A stretch of DNA of 33,626 bases from Pseudomonadota bacterium (GTDB taxonomy: Bacteria; Pseudomonadota; Gammaproteobacteria; Pseudomonadales; Moraxellaceae). The first letter of the stretch is position 1. The number at the start of each line of letters is the position of its first letter. Position numbers and translations under genes: made by a program. The notes under the pieces are model-generated. The model saw nothing but the letters and a program-made list of their open reading frames with translations, was not told the DNA's origin and made no database searches. The DNA is taken from NCBI GenBank assembly GCA_021848605.1, contig JAJZUM010000008.1:1-33626 (forward strand), written 5' to 3'. This document shows, piece by piece, positions 13,051 through 21,579 of the stretch.

Positions 13051-13088
13051 GATTACAGGCCAGGTTGATTCAAAATCAGGAGTCGGCA

Positions 13089-14327
13089 ATGTCCAAACGT
13101 TCTCGAATCATATCGGTGGATCAGCTCGAACCAGGCATGTTCGTCACGCGTCTGGATCGCCCTTGGCTAGAGACCCCGTTTCCGCTGCAAGGTTTTTATA
13201 TTCGTGATTTGCGCGATATTGATGCTATCAAGAGCTACTGCCGTCGTGTCTATGTTGAGGAACGCAAGGTGTTTTTGGCAGCGGCTTCGGCCCCCGAAGC
13301 ACAGACAGTTCCGGTATCAACGGAGGTCATGCAGCCTCGGCCGCGCAGTAGGGTTGCCCTCAAGGTAGAAGTATCACGTTGCCTTGCTGCCTTGCGAGAG
13401 CACAAGTCAATCCTTGATCAGGCCGATCAGTGTTTAAAGGTCGCTGACGCCCAGGTTGTCGAACTGGTTCGGCGTGTTGCCCAAGATCAGGTGGTCAGTG
13501 TATTGCGACATCCAGATGCCCTGGTTTGGGTCGCGCACATGGCTGCGGCTGAAACAGCAGAACGGATGCGCAGTTTGCGTACCTCCGTATGGGCCGTGGT
13601 GCTTGGTCGGCACCTTGGACTTTCGCCCACGTCGCTGCAGATACTTGCCATGGCTGTTCTGTTCATGGATGTGGGTACGCAGGTTCTGAAAACACAGGTT
13701 GGCAGAATGCGAGATCCTCGTGATCATGTCTTGCTCAGCGTGGCTGCCATGAAGCGCATGGATGATATGGATCCTTTGTTGCTCAGTCTTGTGGAGCAGC
13801 ATCATGAGCGCAATGATGGTTCAGGGTATCCTCGTGGACTCTCGGGTCGCCTGATTCATCCCATGGCCAAAATTATGGGGTTGGCAGATCATTTTGACCA
13901 TCTTCTCTTTGCTGAGGATGCAGCCCAGTCCATGAGTTCAACGGAGGCCATGGCTCAATTGTACGCTTTGCGCAATCGAGGGTTTCAGGCCAGTCTGGTC
14001 GATGAGTTCATTCAGGCACTTGGGATTTATCCCAGCGGTTCCCTGGTGCGTTTGAGTGATCAGCGTATTGCCATGGTGCTGGAACAAAACGCAGGTCAGA
14101 AGTTCCGGCCGAAACTGTTGGTGTTGAGCAAACCGGATGAACGTCGGCTCAGTCGTCCGGTTTATCTCGACCTGCAGCATGTCTTCAGTGATCACCAAGG
14201 GCAGCCACTCAAAGTTGCAGCTGGTCTTAAAACCGGCAGTTACGGATATTGCCCCCAGCTCGAATACCTTGATTCTCTTGGGGGATCTACGGGCTCTACG
14301 TTGGCTGCGACCGGTTCAGTGGGATAA
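13089..14327 (+). CDS. DUF3391-HD-GYP protein with lost metal ligands
   Basis: HD-GYP proteins hydrolyse cyclic di-GMP at a di- or tri-iron centre. This 412-residue protein has an N-terminal DUF3391 region (QLEPGMFVTRLDRPWLETPF) and an HD-GYP domain from about residue 160. The HHE...DGSGYP signature is intact at 238-248 and the LADHFD aspartate is present, but the first histidine position reads LRTSVW and the LHDIGK motif reads LFMDVGT, replacing the HD histidine with methionine. It is therefore probably inactive as a phosphodiesterase and may bind ligand or partner proteins. ATG 13089 has AGGAG six bases upstream. Its last 32 bases overlap the convergent tetR-like gene. Confidence 0.88.
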   Translation: MSKRSRIISVDQLEPGMFVTRLDRPWLETPFPLQGFYIRDLRDIDAIKSYCRRVYVEERKVFLAAASAPEAQTVPVSTEVMQPRPRSRVALKVEVSRCLAALREHKSILDQADQCLKVADAQVVELVRRVAQDQVVSVLRHPDALVWVAHMAAAETAERMRSLRTSVWAVVLGRHLGLSPTSLQILAMAVLFMDVGTQVLKTQVGRMRDPRDHVLLSVAAMKRMDDMDPLLLSLVEQHHERNDGSGYPRGLSGRLIHPMAKIMGLADHFDHLLFAEDAAQSMSSTEAMAQLYALRNRGFQASLVDEFIQALGIYPSGSLVRLSDQRIAMVLEQNAGQKFRPKLLVLSKPDERRLSRPVYLDLQHVFSDHQGQPLKVAAGLKTGSYGYCPQLEYLDSLGGSTGSTLAATGSVG

Positions 14328-14907
14328 GACCGGCAAAGCTAACTGTGATCATATGATCTCGAATGGAAGCATGATCCAGTCCCGAATATGCAAGCAAATA
14401 GTCTACGGTAGGATCACAGGTGCGCGCATAGTAGCTGTACAGGATCACCAGGACAGGAAGTTCTGGGTTCAGGCTACCGTCCTGCTGACATTGAGTGACC
14501 AGAGTGCTCAGACGCTGGTTCATGTTCATAATACTCAACACATAAGCCTGATTGCGCAGCAGCATGTCCCGGATTGAAGAGCGTGTTGATGGCAAGAAAG
14601 GCATGCCACCTTTCAGGCGAATATCAATAGCCCAACCAAGCAGGTTTCTTAGCTGGTCAATTGCAGGCATGTTTTGCGGATAGGAATCAAGTTCATCGAT
14701 GGCCTGCTGGATCAGGCGTGTCATCGTCGCGGCCACGAGGTCTTCTCTGCTGGCAAAATGCTTGTACAAACTTGGTTTTGAGATGCCCACTCGTGAAGCA
14801 ATGTCATCCATGGTCATCAGCTCAAAACCATGTTCGACCAGTGCAGCGGTTGTTGCATTCAAAATGGCCTCTTCGCGCAACTTGAAGGTGTGGTTTTTGA
14901 AACTCAT
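14296..14907 (-). CDS. TetR family transcriptional regulator
   Basis: The 203-residue protein has a typical TetR N-terminal DNA-binding domain (ILNATTAALVEHGFELMTM, then IASRVGISKPSLYKHFASRE at about 37-56) and a helical ligand-binding domain of unknown specificity. It is divergent from the five-gene fatty-acid modification operon at 15006, with 98 bases between them that contain two copies of a 12-base site. It most likely represses that operon and itself, with a fatty acyl or lipid ligand as a plausible but unproven signal. Confidence 0.92.
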   Translation of the reverse strand: MSFKNHTFKLREEAILNATTAALVEHGFELMTMDDIASRVGISKPSLYKHFASREDLVAATMTRLIQQAIDELDSYPQNMPAIDQLRNLLGWAIDIRLKGGMPFLPSTRSSIRDMLLRNQAYVLSIMNMNQRLSTLVTQCQQDGSLNPELPVLVILYSYYARTCDPTVDYLLAYSGLDHASIRDHMITVSFAGLIPLNRSQPT

Positions 14908-14932
14908 TTATAAACTCAACTGTAAAAAAAAA

Positions 14933-14985
14933 TACTGAATAGTAGATATGTGAAACGACCTGTGCTAATTTAATACTATTGAGTA
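14933..14985. promoter_or_regulatory. Twin operators and divergent promoters of the TetR gene and the FAD/Cfa operon
   Basis: TACTGAATAGTA (14933-14944) and TACTATTGAGTA (14974-14985) are inverted copies differing at one base, with centres 41 bases apart. On the minus strand the first copy includes TACTAT, a good -10, with TTAGCA 18 bases upstream as -35 for tetR. On the plus strand an extended -10 (TGC then TAATTT, ending 14971) places the operon's transcription start within the second copy. Both sites are thus placed to block transcription. Confidence 0.65.
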
Positions 14986-15005
14986 AATAAATCTACGGTA
15001 GAGTT

Positions 15006-16280
15006 ATGAATCAGGCCAGTTGGGAAGCAAAAAAAATTGCGGTAGTGGGTTCAGGTATATCCGGATTGGCGGCAGCGTATTTTCTGTCGCGTCGGCACGA
15101 GGTAACTCTGTTTGAATCTTCTTCCTGGTTCGGTGGACATGCTCATGCTGTAGAAGTTTCTCTGGAGGGCAAGTCGGCCTGGGTGGACACAGGGTTTCTT
15201 GTCTATAACACCCGCACCTACAGCAACTTCACTCCATTTCTTAAAGAACTTGGGGTGCGTTCCTGCCCCAGTACCATGAGCTTTGCCGTTAGCCGGGACC
15301 AAGGCCATTTTGAATGGGCGGGCTCGTCGCTGGCTACTTTGTTTGGTCAGTTAGGCAACCTCGTTCGTCCAGGTTTTTGGGGCATGATTTTTGATATTCT
15401 GCGCTTTAATCGTCAAGCCGAGCACTACTTGTTGCAAGCTCGCAGCAAGGGTTGGTCCTTAGGTGACTTGCTCAGGCATGAGCAGTTATCCGATGCCTTC
15501 TGTCAAGATTATCTTATGCCGATGGCAGCCTGTATCTGGTCCGCACCTCCAGAGCGGATGTTAGCCTACCCAGCGACTACTTTTTTGCAGTTTTGCATCA
15601 ATCATGGTCTGTTGCAGATCTTCAACAGACCACAGTGGCTCACACTTGAAGGCAGCTCACGCTGTTACGTCCAAGCAGTGCTTGCCAAAGTTAATAATGC
15701 TTTACTCAACACGCCTGTTGAGAAGGTGATTCGAACCTCTGCGGGAGTTGAGGTGCATTCGGTTGATGGAACACGCACCTTTGATGCGATCGTCATGGCT
15801 ACGCATGCGCCAACGACTCTGCAATTGCTTGATGATGCCGATGAGCAAGAGCGTGGGTTGTTAGGTGCCTTTGCCTACCAACGTAATCGTGCCTGGCTGC
15901 ATACGGATCTTGATTGGATGCCTAAACGGCGTCGTCTTTGGTCATCCTGGAATTTTATGGCAGAAGGTGGTGATCGGGATGCGGTTTGCGTTTCATATTG
16001 GCTCAATCGCCTGCAGCCCCTTCCCTGGCAAACCCCTTTGATGGTAACGCTTAACCCTTGGCGAGAGCCTGAGGGTGTGCTCGAAGTTTTTGACTACGAA
16101 CATCCCTTGTTTGATGAGGCAGCTATCCAGGCCCAGCGTCGATTATCGGCTTTGCAAGGACATCGCCATACCTGGTATGCCGGCGCCTGGACCCGCTACG
16201 GGTTTCATGAAGATGGTTTGCGATCTGCTTTGCAAGTGGCAGCAGCGTGGCAGGCTTTACCGGATTGGGCAACGGTTTAG
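15006..16280 (+). CDS. FAD-dependent oxidoreductase (amine oxidase/desaturase-like)
   Basis: The 424-residue flavoprotein begins with a Rossmann dinucleotide-binding motif (VVGSGISGLAAAY at residues 13-25, then VTLFE) and the HAHAVEV segment typical of a family that always travels with DUF1365 and a Cfa-like methyltransferase. A second FAD-contact region lies near the C-terminus (WYAGAWTRYGFHEDGL). The family is thought to oxidise or desaturate modified acyl chains; the exact reaction cannot be read from sequence. It is the first gene of an operon, 13 bases upstream of the DUF1365 gene. Confidence 0.88.
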   Translation: MNQASWEAKKIAVVGSGISGLAAAYFLSRRHEVTLFESSSWFGGHAHAVEVSLEGKSAWVDTGFLVYNTRTYSNFTPFLKELGVRSCPSTMSFAVSRDQGHFEWAGSSLATLFGQLGNLVRPGFWGMIFDILRFNRQAEHYLLQARSKGWSLGDLLRHEQLSDAFCQDYLMPMAACIWSAPPERMLAYPATTFLQFCINHGLLQIFNRPQWLTLEGSSRCYVQAVLAKVNNALLNTPVEKVIRTSAGVEVHSVDGTRTFDAIVMATHAPTTLQLLDDADEQERGLLGAFAYQRNRAWLHTDLDWMPKRRRLWSSWNFMAEGGDRDAVCVSYWLNRLQPLPWQTPLMVTLNPWREPEGVLEVFDYEHPLFDEAAIQAQRRLSALQGHRHTWYAGAWTRYGFHEDGLRSALQVAAAWQALPDWATV

Positions 16281-16293
16281 GAGGAGGCGGGAC

Positions 16294-17046
16294 ATGGATG
16301 AATCAGTGGTGCGTGGCCGCGTGATGCATATCCGCAGGTTGCCTGTGGAAAATGGGTTCAGTTATCCGGTTTTTTTTCTACGTGTTCGCCTCGATACGGA
16401 TCGAGCAGAATCCAGCTTCCTCTTTGGTCGAAACGTCTGGCGTCCAGTTGCGCTCTGGGATAAGGATTATGGCCCGCGTGATGGTTCTGATCTTTATCAT
16501 TGGGCTATGAAACAGTTTGATCAAGCGGGCATTCCCGTTGATGGAAAGCTGGTGCTGCAAGCTTTTCCGCGTGTTTGGGGTTATTTGTTTCATCCGGTCA
16601 GTTTTTTCATGGCCTATGATCGGGAAGGACAGCTGCGCGCAGTTATTGCCGATGTTAACAACACGTTTGGCCAACATACCCATTATGTACTGGATGTAGG
16701 GCGTATGCATGCGGAAGCTGTGGAATGTGCAAAAAAAATGCATGTTTCTCCGTTTAATCGGCTTGAGGGGGGCTATCGGTTCCGTTTCCGTGAATACAAC
16801 AATCGACGCTCGGTATCCATTGACTACTGGATTGACGATCAATGTGTCTTGCGAACGGGATTGTCGGGCAGAGACCAGCCTCTGGATCTTCGCCATGTTG
16901 CGATGGCCCTGCTGCATCAGCCCTTTCTGACCGTGGGCATCATGGCACGAATTCTCTGGCAGGCTTTTCGTCTCTGGCGAAAAGGACTTAAGTTTCATGG
17001 CCTTGAAAGCATTCAAAAAAATTCTGAAAAAGGAGCTGTGTTATGA
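16294..17046 (+). CDS. DUF1365 family protein
   Basis: The 250-residue protein has the DUF1365 pattern: GRVMHIRRLPVENGFSYPVF at the N-terminus, GYLFHPVSFFMAYD near residue 95, and ADVNNTFGQHTHYVL. A hydrophobic stretch near 205-225 may associate with the membrane. The biochemical role is unknown; it is constantly linked to Cfa-like enzymes and the FAD oxidoreductase. A strong AGGAGG site precedes the ATG at 16294 by eight to nine bases. Its stop overlaps the next ATG (ATGA), showing translational coupling. Confidence 0.9.
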   Translation: MDESVVRGRVMHIRRLPVENGFSYPVFFLRVRLDTDRAESSFLFGRNVWRPVALWDKDYGPRDGSDLYHWAMKQFDQAGIPVDGKLVLQAFPRVWGYLFHPVSFFMAYDREGQLRAVIADVNNTFGQHTHYVLDVGRMHAEAVECAKKMHVSPFNRLEGGYRFRFREYNNRRSVSIDYWIDDQCVLRTGLSGRDQPLDLRHVAMALLHQPFLTVGIMARILWQAFRLWRKGLKFHGLESIQKNSEKGAVL

Positions 17047-18269
17047 GCGATATTCAATCACTCGGATTGGTTGAAACAGCCTGGCCTCGTTCGGCGCGCA
17101 TATTTATGGATATGTTGCTTTATGCAGATCGGGGCCATCTGACTCTGACGGTACCCGGGGGGCACAGTATGCTCTTTGGCCAGGCACGTCAGGAGCCTGC
17201 AGCCGATCTGGTGGTTCATGACTGGCGCGCCATTGATGCCATGCTGGATCGCGGTGATATGGGCTTTGCTGAGGCCATACGTCAGGGGTGGTTAGACAGC
17301 TCTGATATGACCCGGGTTATGCGCTTTGCTTTGCAAAATGAATCAGCGCTGAAACGTGCTTTGATCGGACAGGGATTCATGCGTCTTATCTATTTGATGT
17401 TGCATCGTTTTAGAGCGAATACCCGTAAGGGTAGTCGAAGGAATATTGAGGCACACTATGACCTCGGTAACACCTTTTATCAGGTTTGGCTGGATCACAG
17501 CTGGTCTTATTCCAGTGCCTTGTTTGAGGGCAATATGCAGCGCACTCTGGAGCAGGCCCAATGGCATAAATATCAACGCATTATCAATAAACTGCATTTG
17601 ATGCCGGGGATGCATGTTCTTGAAATTGGCTGTGGCTGGGGCGGATTTGCTGAACATGTGGCATTACAAGGTATTCATGTCCATGGAATTACCTTATCCA
17701 TCCAACAGCTTGAGTGGGCAAAAGCGCGGATCAAGGCTGCTGGGCTTAGCCATCTGGTCGAACTGGAGTTATGCGATTATCGTGATGTTCAGGGCAGATG
17801 GGATGCCGTTGTATCCATTGAAATGTTCGAGGCTGTTGGTGAGGCGTACTGGGAGACGTACATGAACAAGGTGCGTCAGGTCCTTAAGCCGGGTGCACAG
17901 GCGCTTATTCAGACTATCACGATTGATGAAGATCGTTTTGCTTCGTACCGTCGCAGCAGTGATTTTATCCGGCATTACATTTTTCCAGGCGGCATGCTGC
18001 CGTCTTTGCCTCGATTCTCGGCAGTAGCCGCCCGTTCAGGACTGCTCACCCGCGATGTTTTGGCTTTCGGCAAAGATTATGCAGAGACTTTGCGGCGTTG
18101 GAGGGATGCTTTTGAAGTTGGCCTGCCAGAAATACGGTTGCAGGGTTTTGATGACGTGTTTATTCGTACCTGGTCACTCTACTTATCCTATTGCGAAGCA
18201 GGCTTTGAAGAGAATCGTATTGATGTGGTACAGGTCCTCCTCGAAGCAATGCCAGAGGGCCGATCATGA
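17043..18269 (+). CDS. Cyclopropane-fatty-acid-synthase-like SAM methyltransferase
   Basis: The 408-residue enzyme methylates unsaturated acyl chains of phospholipids using S-adenosylmethionine. The SAM motif VLEIGCGWGGFAEH is near residues 192-205; upstream is the AHYDLGNTFYQVWLD block and downstream SIEMFEAVGEAYWETYM and the HYIFPGGMLPS lipid-site segment, all characteristic of Cfa enzymes. In clusters of this kind the relative may make a cyclopropane or a methyl-branched product that serves as precursor for further oxidation. The start overlaps the DUF1365 stop and the stop overlaps the next ATG. Confidence 0.93.
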   Translation: MSDIQSLGLVETAWPRSARIFMDMLLYADRGHLTLTVPGGHSMLFGQARQEPAADLVVHDWRAIDAMLDRGDMGFAEAIRQGWLDSSDMTRVMRFALQNESALKRALIGQGFMRLIYLMLHRFRANTRKGSRRNIEAHYDLGNTFYQVWLDHSWSYSSALFEGNMQRTLEQAQWHKYQRIINKLHLMPGMHVLEIGCGWGGFAEHVALQGIHVHGITLSIQQLEWAKARIKAAGLSHLVELELCDYRDVQGRWDAVVSIEMFEAVGEAYWETYMNKVRQVLKPGAQALIQTITIDEDRFASYRRSSDFIRHYIFPGGMLPSLPRFSAVAARSGLLTRDVLAFGKDYAETLRRWRDAFEVGLPEIRLQGFDDVFIRTWSLYLSYCEAGFEENRIDVVQVLLEAMPEGRS

Positions 18270-18820
18270 GGTACCGGCGTTTGTTATGGGGTGGCCTCGC
18301 GTTACTTACAGGGTGTACTGCCCCTCAGGTTGTTGATTACCGCTCAGAGCGTCCGATATTCGACATCATGTCTTTTTTTCAGGGGGATGTCGATGGTACG
18401 GGCATGTTTCAAGATCGAACCGGGCATGTCGTCAAACGATTTCATGTAGTCATGCATGGAGTGGTCACCAACGATGAACTGCTGCTGCAGGAACATTTTA
18501 GCTACAGCGACGGCTCGACCCAGCAGCGGGTTTGGCATATTCACAAGGCAGTGTTGCCCGGTAGCATTGAAGGCACTGCTGGCGATGTTGTGGGGGTGGC
18601 GCATGGTGCGCAGTCGGGTAATGCCTTGCACTGGGATTATCGGCTCAAACTTCCTGTTGGTCGCCATACGCTTACGGTGGGTATGAACGACTGGATGTTC
18701 CAGCAGGACGCCGGCACACTCCTTGATGTTACCGATATGAGCTGGTGGGGCGTTCATCTTGGTCATCTTACCCTGGTCATGCATCACAGAGGAGCCTCAT
18801 CATGTTCTTGCAACCACTGA
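18266..18820 (+). CDS. DUF3833 family lipoprotein
   Basis: The 184-residue protein has a lipoprotein signal with lipobox LLTGC, the acylated cysteine being residue 17, followed by a beta-rich domain (FDIMSFFQGDVDGTGMFQD). DUF3833 proteins are found next to Cfa/DUF1365 genes and have no proven function; a periplasmic membrane-facing lipid-handling role is an inference. The gene overlaps both neighbours, by 4 bases upstream and 19 bases downstream. Confidence 0.9.
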   Translation: MRYRRLLWGGLALLTGCTAPQVVDYRSERPIFDIMSFFQGDVDGTGMFQDRTGHVVKRFHVVMHGVVTNDELLLQEHFSYSDGSTQQRVWHIHKAVLPGSIEGTAGDVVGVAHGAQSGNALHWDYRLKLPVGRHTLTVGMNDWMFQQDAGTLLDVTDMSWWGVHLGHLTLVMHHRGASSCSCNH

Positions 18821-19584
18821 ATCACCCTATTCGCCATTGGCAGGGTATGATGATCTGGGTCGTCGGTGCTTCTTCCGGTATTGGGGCAGCGTTGGCCAAG
18901 GCCATGTTGAAGCAAGGGGCACATGTGGCGGTGTCGGCACGAACGGCATCAGCACTGGAGAGCCAGTTTCAACCGGAGGTCAATGCCATGGTGTTGCCTC
19001 TGGATGTCAACGATTCCCTAGCATGGCAGCAAGCACATGAACAGATTTTGCAACGCTGGGGTCAGGTGGATATGCTCGTGTATTGTGTGGCCGACTACGT
19101 GCCTGAGCGTGTTTGGGAGATGCAGCCCGATCGTGCCCGTCAAATGGTTTTAACCAATCTGGCGGCTTATTATGATGCCTTGGCCATCCTCTTGCCTGAC
19201 ATGTTACTGGCAGGTAAAGGCCATCTGGCACTGATTGCCAGCGTCGCCGGTTACGTAGGTTTGCCCAAGGCGACTGTCTATGGTCCGACCAAGGCGGCTC
19301 TGATCAACCTGGCAGAAATTCTTTACAATGACCTTCATGCGCTTGGTATTAATGTTTTCTTAATCAATCCCGGATTTATTGCGACCCGACTGACCGAGAA
19401 AAATGATTTTGAAATGCCGGCTCTGCTTAGTCCGGAACAGGCCAGTGCCGCAATCATGGCAGGCATGGCATGTGGCGATTTTGAAATCCACTTCCCGCGT
19501 CGGTTTACCCGTTGGCTTAAACTGGTTCAGCTGATGCCCTACCGGTGGCGTTTTGCCCTCATGCAACGGCTTGTGTCAACTTGA
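18802..19584 (+). CDS. Short-chain dehydrogenase/reductase, last gene of the Cfa operon
   Basis: The 260-residue classical SDR has the nucleotide-binding GASSGIG at residues 22-28, a catalytic serine in ASVAG near 147 and YGPTK with Tyr160 and Lys164. It probably reduces or oxidises a carbonyl or hydroxyl on a lipid intermediate using NAD(P). The ATG at 18802 has GAGGAG seven bases upstream and lies inside the end of the DUF3833 gene, so it is translated from the same mRNA. Confidence 0.9.
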   Translation: MFLQPLNHPIRHWQGMMIWVVGASSGIGAALAKAMLKQGAHVAVSARTASALESQFQPEVNAMVLPLDVNDSLAWQQAHEQILQRWGQVDMLVYCVADYVPERVWEMQPDRARQMVLTNLAAYYDALAILLPDMLLAGKGHLALIASVAGYVGLPKATVYGPTKAALINLAEILYNDLHALGINVFLINPGFIATRLTEKNDFEMPALLSPEQASAAIMAGMACGDFEIHFPRRFTRWLKLVQLMPYRWRFALMQRLVST

Positions 19585-19802: not shown

Positions 19803-20738
19803 TCATTCCTTGAGAAGTCGATAATGTGCGGCGATCTCGCGCAGAGTGAATTGTGGACTGAACTCGAAGGTATCCCGGAACAAATGGCCGTTGATCGTGG
19901 TCGAGTATTTGAAAAACTGCAGCAGATAGGGCGGAAAGCCTTTCCATTTCATGCGTTTGGCAATCCATATGGGCAGTGATGGAGGAAGAGACGGAACATG
20001 AATTTTGCTGCATCCACAGAGGTCAACCATGCGTTGATAGGCAACCCAGTCATCCGGTGCAACGTTATAGATACCCGGCCTGTTTTTTTCATAAGCCAAA
20101 ACAATGGCGTCAGCCATGTCTTCGAGGTGAATGAACTGCATGATGGGTGAAAAGCCTGCCAGGACTGGGACGCGTGGCGATGCCAGCAGGGTGCTCATGC
20201 TGTTGTTGACCCCAGGTCCAACAATATTGCATGGGCGTAAAATGGTGATATTCAGTTCGGGATGTTTCCAGAGATAGATGTTCGACAGATTTTCCAGTTC
20301 CACTGAATCGACCAGATCCATCGTGATTTCTGCGGCCTTCAGGGGGGCTTCTTCGGTGAGCATCGCCGGATTGTACGGGCTGGCACCATAGACAAAGTAG
20401 GTGGACAAGACCATGATTTGTTTGACGCTGTATTTTCGGCTCAGGTCAAACAGGCGTTGCGTGCCAAGCACATTGGCATTGTAGCGATGCATGCGCGTCG
20501 ATTCATTGGGTCCGATGCGCCCGAGGTGGATCACTCCAGTAAAAGCGTAATCGCGAAAAAGGTCTTCAAAGTGTCGCTTGTTGAAATCGATCTGAAAACT
20601 TGGGATATCGGCCGGCATGGAAACTTCCCGACGGGCATCACAGACAACCAGTCGATAGCTCCTTCGCAGCCGTCGAATGACCTGCTGGGCCAAGGCTCCA
20701 GCAGCGCCGGTAACGAGAAGATAGGGACGCTCAGTCAC
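19803..20738 (-). CDS. NAD-dependent epimerase/dehydratase family protein (extended SDR)
   Basis: The product of 311 residues starts MTERPYLLVTGAAGALAQQV, a TGxxGxxG-type extended-SDR nucleotide site, and carries IHLGRIGP, the catalytic region STYFVYG (Ser and Tyr separated differently from classical SDRs) and ILRPCNIVGPG. It has the fold of sugar-nucleotide epimerases, but proteins paired with a phospholipid acyltransferase may act on other substrates. GTG 20738 has AGGAG eight bases upstream; GTG 20747 would abut that site. It overlaps the end of the acyltransferase gene by eight bases, so they are coupled. Confidence 0.85.
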   Translation of the reverse strand: MTERPYLLVTGAAGALAQQVIRRLRRSYRLVVCDARREVSMPADIPSFQIDFNKRHFEDLFRDYAFTGVIHLGRIGPNESTRMHRYNANVLGTQRLFDLSRKYSVKQIMVLSTYFVYGASPYNPAMLTEEAPLKAAEITMDLVDSVELENLSNIYLWKHPELNITILRPCNIVGPGVNNSMSTLLASPRVPVLAGFSPIMQFIHLEDMADAIVLAYEKNRPGIYNVAPDDWVAYQRMVDLCGCSKIHVPSLPPSLPIWIAKRMKWKGFPPYLLQFFKYSTTINGHLFRDTFEFSPQFTLREIAAHYRLLKE

Positions 20739-21546
20739 GGTTGACACTCCTTAAGGCTCTGCTTTTCTGGACCAAATGTTCAATAGTGCTGCGGACTTCA
20801 TGAACCTTCCGTTGCACGGAAGTCTCGGAAGTATTGTTGTTGTCAAAGTGCATCAATGGACCGAAATGCATGACCACCTTGCTGGGCAGAAATGGAAGGC
20901 CGAGGGGGATATAGGGTACTGCCATCATGCGCGCCAGGCTGGGTATGTCTCCGAACATGGGAAATGATTCTTCACAGCCGGCAATGCCAACAGGCAGGAT
21001 CGGTGTTTGGGTCTCCATGGCCAGATGCATGAAACCAAGACCAAAGCGTTGCAGGTTGTAGCGGTTTTTCCAGCCTTTGCCGGTGCCTCGAGCGCCTTCC
21101 GGAAAGACGATCACTGCTTCTTCATGCAGAAGCATGTCCCGGCAGTTGTGTACGTCGCCAAGCACTGCACCAAGTCCGTTCATCATGTTGCCAAGATAGG
21201 GAACGGTAGGGAAAAAACGTTCAATCATAGCACGGGGCAGGCGAGCGCCGTTAGGGTTGAGTGCCATGGCAACACCAATGAGGACGCCGTCCATGGGCAG
21301 GAATCCACTGTGGTTGGAAATAACCAGGACCCGGCCGTGAGTAGGAACGTGTTCAAGACCAATTGCTTCAGTACGGTAGTAGCGCTCATAGACCCATTTC
21401 ATCAGGCCTAAGCCAACCCGGTTGACATCCAGATGAAAGCCCCAGGGGTCGTAACCCAAAGAACCCGTCTGTTTTGACGACGCGGCAACATGCTCGCGTG
21501 TCTGAGCATCAAGGAGCCATTGCTCCAGGCGATGATTCCATTTCAT
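20731..21546 (-). CDS. Lysophospholipid/glycerolipid acyltransferase (PlsC-like)
   Basis: The 271-residue protein has the acyltransferase motif in the NHSGFLPMD form (His79, Asp86), seen in a PlsC-related subfamily, and the substrate-binding VFPEGARGTGK near 147-157, with VGIAGCEESFP further on. It should transfer an acyl group to a glycerophosphate-like hydroxyl at the inner membrane face, although the acceptor is unknown. The ATG at 21546 has GAGGG seven bases upstream; an ATG at 21576 would add ten residues. It is the first gene of a pair with the extended SDR. Confidence 0.9.
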   Translation of the reverse strand: MKWNHRLEQWLLDAQTREHVAASSKQTGSLGYDPWGFHLDVNRVGLGLMKWVYERYYRTEAIGLEHVPTHGRVLVISNHSGFLPMDGVLIGVAMALNPNGARLPRAMIERFFPTVPYLGNMMNGLGAVLGDVHNCRDMLLHEEAVIVFPEGARGTGKGWKNRYNLQRFGLGFMHLAMETQTPILPVGIAGCEESFPMFGDIPSLARMMAVPYIPLGLPFLPSKVVMHFGPLMHFDNNNTSETSVQRKVHEVRSTIEHLVQKSRALRSVNRD

Positions 21547-21579
21547 GCAAAGTCCCTCGTAAAGCCTGCCCCTCATGCA

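Follow-up and report, generated by a model that had tools for sequence, protein, structure and literature searches.

A TetR-type repressor gene with a recognizable putative operator beside a predicted methylated furan fatty acid operon in Moraxellaceae

What switches on a predicted furan fatty acid operon that begins opposite a tetR-type gene and has no sigma factor gene alongside? To our knowledge, the known triggers of the furan fatty acid pathway are singlet oxygen and light. The locus lies in a 33,626-nucleotide stretch of a Moraxellaceae genome (2.6 Mb, 91% complete), hereafter the window, in which a divergent tetR gene is followed by five plus-strand genes extending to position 19584. 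From its sequence, the system looks like a known pathway under a different switch, a TetR-type repressor with a recognizable site as opposed to the stress and light sensors of other bacteria. We consider it likely, from gene content, gene linkage and conserved intergenic sequence, that this operon, predicted to make methylated furan fatty acids, is controlled by a TetR repressor acting locally.

The operon and its predicted pathway

All six genes have strong Pfam matches, and the features of the locus are as follows.

14296..14907, minus strand: tetR-type repressor gene, 203 aa ("UfaR", a name of convenience); TetR_N PF00440, 4e-15; relatives linked to ufaD
14933..14944, no strand: operator 1 (putative), TACTGAATAGTA, an exact TACT-N4-AGTA
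14974..14985, no strand: operator 2 (putative), TACTATTGAGTA, an exact TACT-N4-AGTA
15006..16280, plus strand: ufaD-like FAD oxidoreductase, 424 aa, predicted fatty acyl desaturase; PF01593 (Amino_oxidase), 4.7e-19, and PF13450 (NAD_binding_8); precedes a DUF1365 gene as RSP1091 UfaD precedes RSP1090 UfaO (excerpts of PMC7380195)
16294..17046, plus strand: ufaO-like gene for a DUF1365 protein, 250 aa, predicted furan-forming oxygenase; PF07103, 1.3e-65; UfaO is a DUF1365 protein (excerpts of PMC7380195)
17043..18269, plus strand: ufaM-like Cfa-family methyltransferase, 408 aa; CMAS PF02353, 1.4e-81; His266 replaced by Gln and the His of FEHVG by Ala
18266..18820, plus strand: DUF3833 predicted lipoprotein, 184 aa; PF12915, 7.1e-57; lipobox-like LLTGC at the start of the protein
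18802..19584, plus strand: short-chain dehydrogenase/reductase (SDR), 260 aa; adh_short PF00106, 1.4e-37

A sequence-only reading of this DNA had described these five genes, with a divergent tetR gene, as a fatty acid modification cluster coupled throughout by ATGA or longer overlaps. The gene set is as described, and the coupling holds at three of the four junctions: the ufaO/cfa and cfa/DUF3833 junctions read as ATGA overlaps and the DUF3833 and SDR genes overlap by 19 bp, while ufaD and ufaO are separated by a 13-bp gap, with no overlap, when translation of ufaO is taken to begin at the well-placed ATG at 16294, behind GGAGGAGG. On the other side of tetR, an HD-domain/DUF3391 gene, possibly for a c-di-GMP phosphodiesterase, occupies 13065-14327 and meets tetR tail-to-tail with a 32-bp overlap. 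Downstream of the operon, the minus strand at 19803-21576 carries a convergent epimerase-like gene and an acyltransferase gene, possibly lipid-related, whose homologs also trail the operon in two other genomes, G372 and G386 (loci L054 and L055).

The proposed furan fatty acid affiliation is upheld by gene order, in that the gene for the UfaD-like FAD protein adjoins the DUF1365 ufaO gene and the Cfa-like gene comes next. The cluster corresponds to the R. sphaeroides furan fatty acid operon RSP1091-1087 (ufaD, ufaO, Cfa-like, DUF3833, SDR), whose genes RSP1089-1087 we take to be the Cfa-like, DUF3833 and SDR genes. In R. sphaeroides, according to excerpts of PMC7380195, furan acid requires UfaD and UfaO, encoded at the head of the five-gene operon; 11-methyl-octadecenoate on phospholipid is desaturated by RSP1091 (UfaD), ring formation needs RSP1090 (UfaO) with the oxygen coming from O2, and RSP1089, 1088 and 1087 (402, 186 and 245 aa) are dispensable. 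The first methylation is carried out by UfaM, which in that species is RSP2144, outside the operon; in R. palustris, RPA2569-2571, the genes for UfaM, UfaD and UfaO, suffice (excerpts of PMC7380195). In Halomonas sp. YLGW01 ufaD, ufaO and ufaM are consecutive, and UfaM expressed in E. coli yields 11-methyl-octadecenoate (excerpts of PMC12089945). By analogy, the enzymes of the window would act on phospholipid-bound cis-vaccenate: UfaM would add the methyl group, UfaD would desaturate, and UfaO would insert oxygen and thereby close the furan ring, with no step assigned to the DUF3833 protein and the SDR.

The methyltransferase belongs to the CMAS family, and cyclic acids were detected as well in the Halomonas UfaM strain (excerpts of PMC12089945), so that it could instead produce ordinary cyclopropane or only methyl-branched acids, the other genes being accessory. 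In cyclopropane synthase, bicarbonate is bound by Glu239, His266 and Tyr317 (excerpts of PMC11387697). We compared these positions in 144 ufa loci drawn from the family, the class and plasmids, in which 122 Cfa-like proteins are encoded directly after UfaO. All 122 retain the Glu and all 122 carry Gln for His266; the His of FEHVG is replaced by Ala in 120 and by Ser in two, and the Tyr317 position holds Tyr in 121 and a gap in one. Both His residues are kept in two solved cyclopropane synthases, and a second, separate Cfa of a genome of the same family (G379) keeps both His along with Glu and Tyr, i.e. all three ligands. Cfa-like proteins encoded after a DUF1295 gene have both His in 20 of 20 cases, but Phe for Tyr317. 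In the remaining groups, five Cfa-like proteins called directly after UfaD have Gln (four) or His (one); 18 without a labeled neighbor have Gln (seven), His (10) or a gap (one); four others, encoded after another Cfa, a MerR or an NTF2 gene, have His; and of five non-operonic proteins four have His, three of these repeating the DUF1295 type, while L249 lacks every ligand. The own genome encodes one full CMAS protein, the operonic one, plus one partial match below the cut-off.

The consistent loss of the bicarbonate-ligand His and the fact that 99 of 118 surveyed loci have the UfaD, UfaO and Cfa genes side by side (as delimited by a naive gene caller) both tell against the cyclopropane alternative, which we judge unlikely. 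We infer instead that the Gln-form proteins are the UfaM-type methylases of ufa operons. The window's CMAS protein, a candidate UfaM, has Gln at the His266 position, as do its 122 operonic relatives; position alone is no proof of UfaM identity, since the third operon gene of R. sphaeroides, RSP1089, is dispensable and UfaM is encoded elsewhere. The Gln-for-His swap offers a simple sequence mark for distinguishing the operonic methyltransferase from cyclopropane synthases, whose family models also match it. Separately, a second module, comprising a DUF1295 protein and another Cfa-like protein, often lies beside the ufa core (L200-L204, L210, L216 and other class loci).

Regulators associated with the operon

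The sequence-only reading had set the TetR gene against a "usual" sigma-E/ChrR control. That no sigma factor is present at the locus and a TetR gene stands in its place is borne out: ECF, ChrR and MerR profiles match no ORF of the window, and the divergent TetR is confirmed. The survey of neighborhoods that the reading called for ties the TetR specifically to the operon, as detailed in the next section, and also reveals that ECF/ChrR is not the usual partner. DUF1365 was detected in 114 of the 369 genomes searched in the class and in 178 of the 299 searched in the family. From the evenly drawn class sample, we recovered stretches from 110 of the 113 genomes with DUF1365 besides the own genome, all outside the window's family, and scored regulators within six genes by means of purpose-built profiles, with examples checked against Pfam (sigma70_r2/r4, Cupin_7, MerR with B12-binding domain, TetR_N). 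An ECF gene lies near 13 of the 110 loci, with ChrR as well in 10, and ChrR without a called ECF near one; MerR lies near 25, one of which has a generic TetR too; a histidine kinase and/or response regulator alone accompanies 21; and 50, some on short contigs, have no recognized regulator. The window's TetR subfamily is absent from all 110. ECF/ChrR does adjoin the operon in the single alphaproteobacterial locus that was examined.

Within the family, the survey covered 27 genomes besides the window, seven chosen for having the TetR and 20 for spread among DUF1365 hits. The 20 comprise three with TetR, six with MerR and photolyase genes at the 3' end, seven with a fatty acid desaturase and two-component genes, and four with no recognized regulator, one of which lacks a callable anchor. 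The TetR-type genomes of the family thus number the window's plus 10, and the family's alternatives to TetR are a B12-binding MerR with photolyase or a two-component pair. A genome-wide scan with UfaO alone as query returned no matches.

Light control of the LitR kind finds little purchase in the window, where neither a MerR with B12 domain nor a photolyase profile matches; the own genome has one photolyase gene, on another contig. Another reading is that the operon is driven mainly by a distant ECF sigma factor or some other global signal, with TetR confined to fine-tuning or to regulating itself. ECF/ChrR or sigma/anti-sigma genes do adjoin the operon in some relatives, and Sigma70_r2 has seven matches elsewhere in the own genome, two of which, of 196 aa, fit the ECF profile. 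Against this, the tetR-ufaD gap (14908-15005) contains no TGATC-N15-20-TA element, the kind of ECF promoter whose presence the sequence-only reading had named as evidence against itself; Cupin_7, the ChrR domain, has no match in the own genome (91% complete) or in the TetR-type genus-mate G370; and the paired putative operators face ufaD. No ECF or ChrR gene is linked to the operon in the window. Cupin_7 does match in three of the 11 TetR-type family genomes (G379, G388 and, partially, G386), and the absence of ChrR is therefore not general. On balance, we regard primary control by a remote sigma factor as improbable and favor the adjacent TetR as the main regulator.

The repressor and its putative operator

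The tetR product has the family's defining features, a TetR_N helix-turn-helix and an all-helical C-terminal domain, as assessed by Pfam, by an AlphaFold2 model (pLDDT 90) and by matches to TetR structures. Its Foldseek neighbors are a mixed set in which FadR, HapR, AmvR and others match alike, naming no ligand class.

A BLAST search in 38 relatives identified seven other genomes with clear TetR relatives, at 33-87% identity, all beside a ufa operon; opposite the more distant TetRs (L058, L218 and L059, about 33%) the operon begins with an SDR or NTF2 gene, and a Cupriavidus pinatubonensis plasmid encodes a 54% identical TetR divergent to ufaD. Altogether, 13 first-surveyed loci, including two Cupriavidus records, have a divergent TetR of the same subfamily; these do not amount to 13 independent events, because several are close relatives of each other. 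We then scanned named genomes with the TetR alignment and considered the best 80 of at least 487 relatives, three of which (L259, L279, L302) had already been surveyed. Among these 80, ufaD lies within nine genes in 66 and, according to the gene caller, directly next to tetR in 59. At 47% identity or above, ufaD is linked in all 58 testable loci of this set and in 55 of 55 new ones; L283, also at 47% or above, is cut at the contig end and falls outside the 58. Below 47%, eight of 21 are linked, and in five of the 13 unlinked loci the available sequence extends less than 1.4 kb towards the operon side. The hosts belong for the most part to the Betaproteobacteria (Iodobacter, Chitinibacter, Deefgea, Cupriavidus, Undibacterium, Duganella, Herbaspirillum, Chromobacterium and others).

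On these neighborhoods, the divergent TetR is dedicated to the ufa operon. The partial linkage below 47%, together with the invariant residues kept by unlinked proteins, implies that the TetR subfamily has other members. The thirteen relatives with no ufa operon seen nearby (L315, L318, L319, L321, L325, L326, L328-L330, L333-L336) keep the RTCDP motif. All 92 sequences compared share Cys164 of this motif, along with Arg162, Asp165 and Pro166; the 92 comprise 76 linked, three distant linked and 13 unlinked sequences, with three records counted twice and the cut L283 left out. The invariant Cys164 could act as a reactive thiol, contribute to the ligand site or have a structural role, and it is the best lead to the inducer.

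The gap between the divergent genes carries a palindrome, TACT-N4-AGTA, a candidate operator identified by sequence only. It is found in all 13 tetR-operon gaps of the first-surveyed loci, with two copies in the window; in dinucleotide shuffles, 2000 per gap, a copy arose in 0 to 1.35%. When a fixed 250 bp before the operon was considered, the motif was present in 12 of 13, the miss being L218, whose operon start is misassigned, vs 0 of 126 ufa operons without the window's TetR. Among the best 80 of at least 487 relatives, the exact motif occurs in 50 of the 66 linked loci, or in 47 of 63 when only new ones are counted, and the 14 others, including the cut L283, all lack it; a relaxed form, TACY-N4-RGTA, occurs in 60 of the 64 linked loci with a full ufaD vs 2 of the 126 controls. 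The four linked loci in which no operator is recognizable by this relaxed pattern are L320, L323, L324 and L331. A different palindrome favored by an early scan, ATAAATCTACGGTAGAGTTAT, was dropped when it proved common, among the 13 gaps, only to the window and its genus-mate. That TetR controls something else and adjoins the operon by chance is strongly disfavored, indeed a very slim prospect: for all that 13 lower-identity loci among the best 80 of at least 487 relatives are unlinked, close relatives (at least 47%) are linked in 58 of 58 testable loci of that set and TACT-N4-AGTA is missing from the 126 ufa operons that lack this TetR.

The own genome of 2.6 Mb contains 12 instances of TACT-N4-AGTA, of which the tetR-ufaD gap accounts for two. 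Nine of the 10 sites outside the window were examined: eight lie inside ORFs and the ninth precedes an OhrR-like gene. The tenth, judged by eye, seems to fall within a frame that encodes a membrane sensor kinase. The OhrR-like gene (133 bits, below the model cut-off of 200), with the motif at L344 738-749 beginning 24 bp before its start codon, was considered as a second target; the site is absent before seven relatives (eight genomes; one 80% identical), and the occurrence was taken as chance. A reversed-pattern control (60 places in the own genome) contains ATGA and was no fair yardstick. Because the motif occurs at few places, with the outside sites inside ORFs or unconserved, the regulon of this TetR seems local. 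A scan for promoters returned no sigma-70 site from the tetR-ufaD gap; TACTAT of operator 2 could nonetheless serve as the -10 element of a ufaD promoter.

A proposed switch, its history and comparison with known systems

In the proposed mechanism, a TetR dimer would bind both palindromes and block the two divergent promoters, those of ufaD and of its own gene, until released by a small-molecule inducer, probably a membrane-derived or oxidized lipid. That a lipid or some other small ligand acts as inducer, as the sequence-only reading had suggested, is plausible by analogy with other TetR-type repressors. Titles and abstract beginnings of the open-licence PMC papers retrieved on the subject disclosed no TetR regulator of this operon. 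A broader and decidedly tentative proposal is that a dedicated TetR-subfamily sensor constitutes a third control of furan fatty acid synthesis, after singlet oxygen (sigma-E/ChrR) and light (LitR), in which the invariant Cys164 would react with an oxidized, electrophilic membrane-lipid product, or TetR would bind the methylated acyl chains of the pathway, and in which repressor and operon would be passed on together between Betaproteobacteria and Moraxellaceae. Given a repressor and its putative operator, the trigger could be screened for: a TACT-N4-AGTA reporter combined with TetR could identify the inducing lipid.

The history of the operon was examined in a UfaD tree of 74 rows (quick search, SH-aLRT supports). 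A single clade uniting the family's 24 UfaD copies is rejected (AU p about 1e-58). The window's group, of four genomes, and three further family lineages sit among betaproteobacterial TetR-type operons, two of these lineages adjoining Aquitalea (support 99) and Chromobacterium/Xenophilus (97); the family's MerR-type copies make up a clade of their own (99). The fork uniting the main TetR group has a support of only 91-94, and the distant TetR-type UfaD groups with two copies lacking a recognized regulator. Burkholderia/Caballeronia plasmid copies with sigma-70/anti-sigma genes (L223, L225) fall inside the TetR-type group, a placement that suggests a regulator swap. The UfaD trees suggest horizontal spread of the operon; repressor and operon have probably moved together several times, with regulators swapped on a stable enzyme core. 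This repeated replacement of regulators around a shared set of enzymes reveals the signals to which different bacteria couple membrane modification.

Among known systems, R. sphaeroides RSP1091-1087 is alike in having UfaD and UfaO followed by three genes of 402, 186 and 245 aa, vs 408, 184 and 260 aa in the window. The two differ in that the window has TetR and TACT-N4-AGTA where R. sphaeroides has ChrR, whose mutants show increased furan acid (excerpts of PMC7380195), and in that ufaM of R. sphaeroides (RSP2144) lies elsewhere, whereas the window's genome yielded a single full Cfa-family gene, the operonic one. R. palustris RPA2571-2570-2569 (excerpts of PMC7380195) and Halomonas sp. YLGW01 (excerpts of PMC12089945) resemble the window in presenting three consecutive enzyme genes. 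In V. cholerae, excerpts of PMC5241685 describe a blue-light response through ChrR/sigma-E and MerR that raises a putative CFA synthase gene; the regulators differ from those of the window. The light-induced cluster under class II LitR (PplR/PmlR) in Pseudomonas, comprising phrB, SDR, FAD oxidoreductase and ufaM genes, has an enzyme set related to that of the window, whose locus differs in lacking the MerR and photolyase (excerpts of PMC9758184). A similar MerR and photolyase layout is present in six surveyed genomes of the window's own family.
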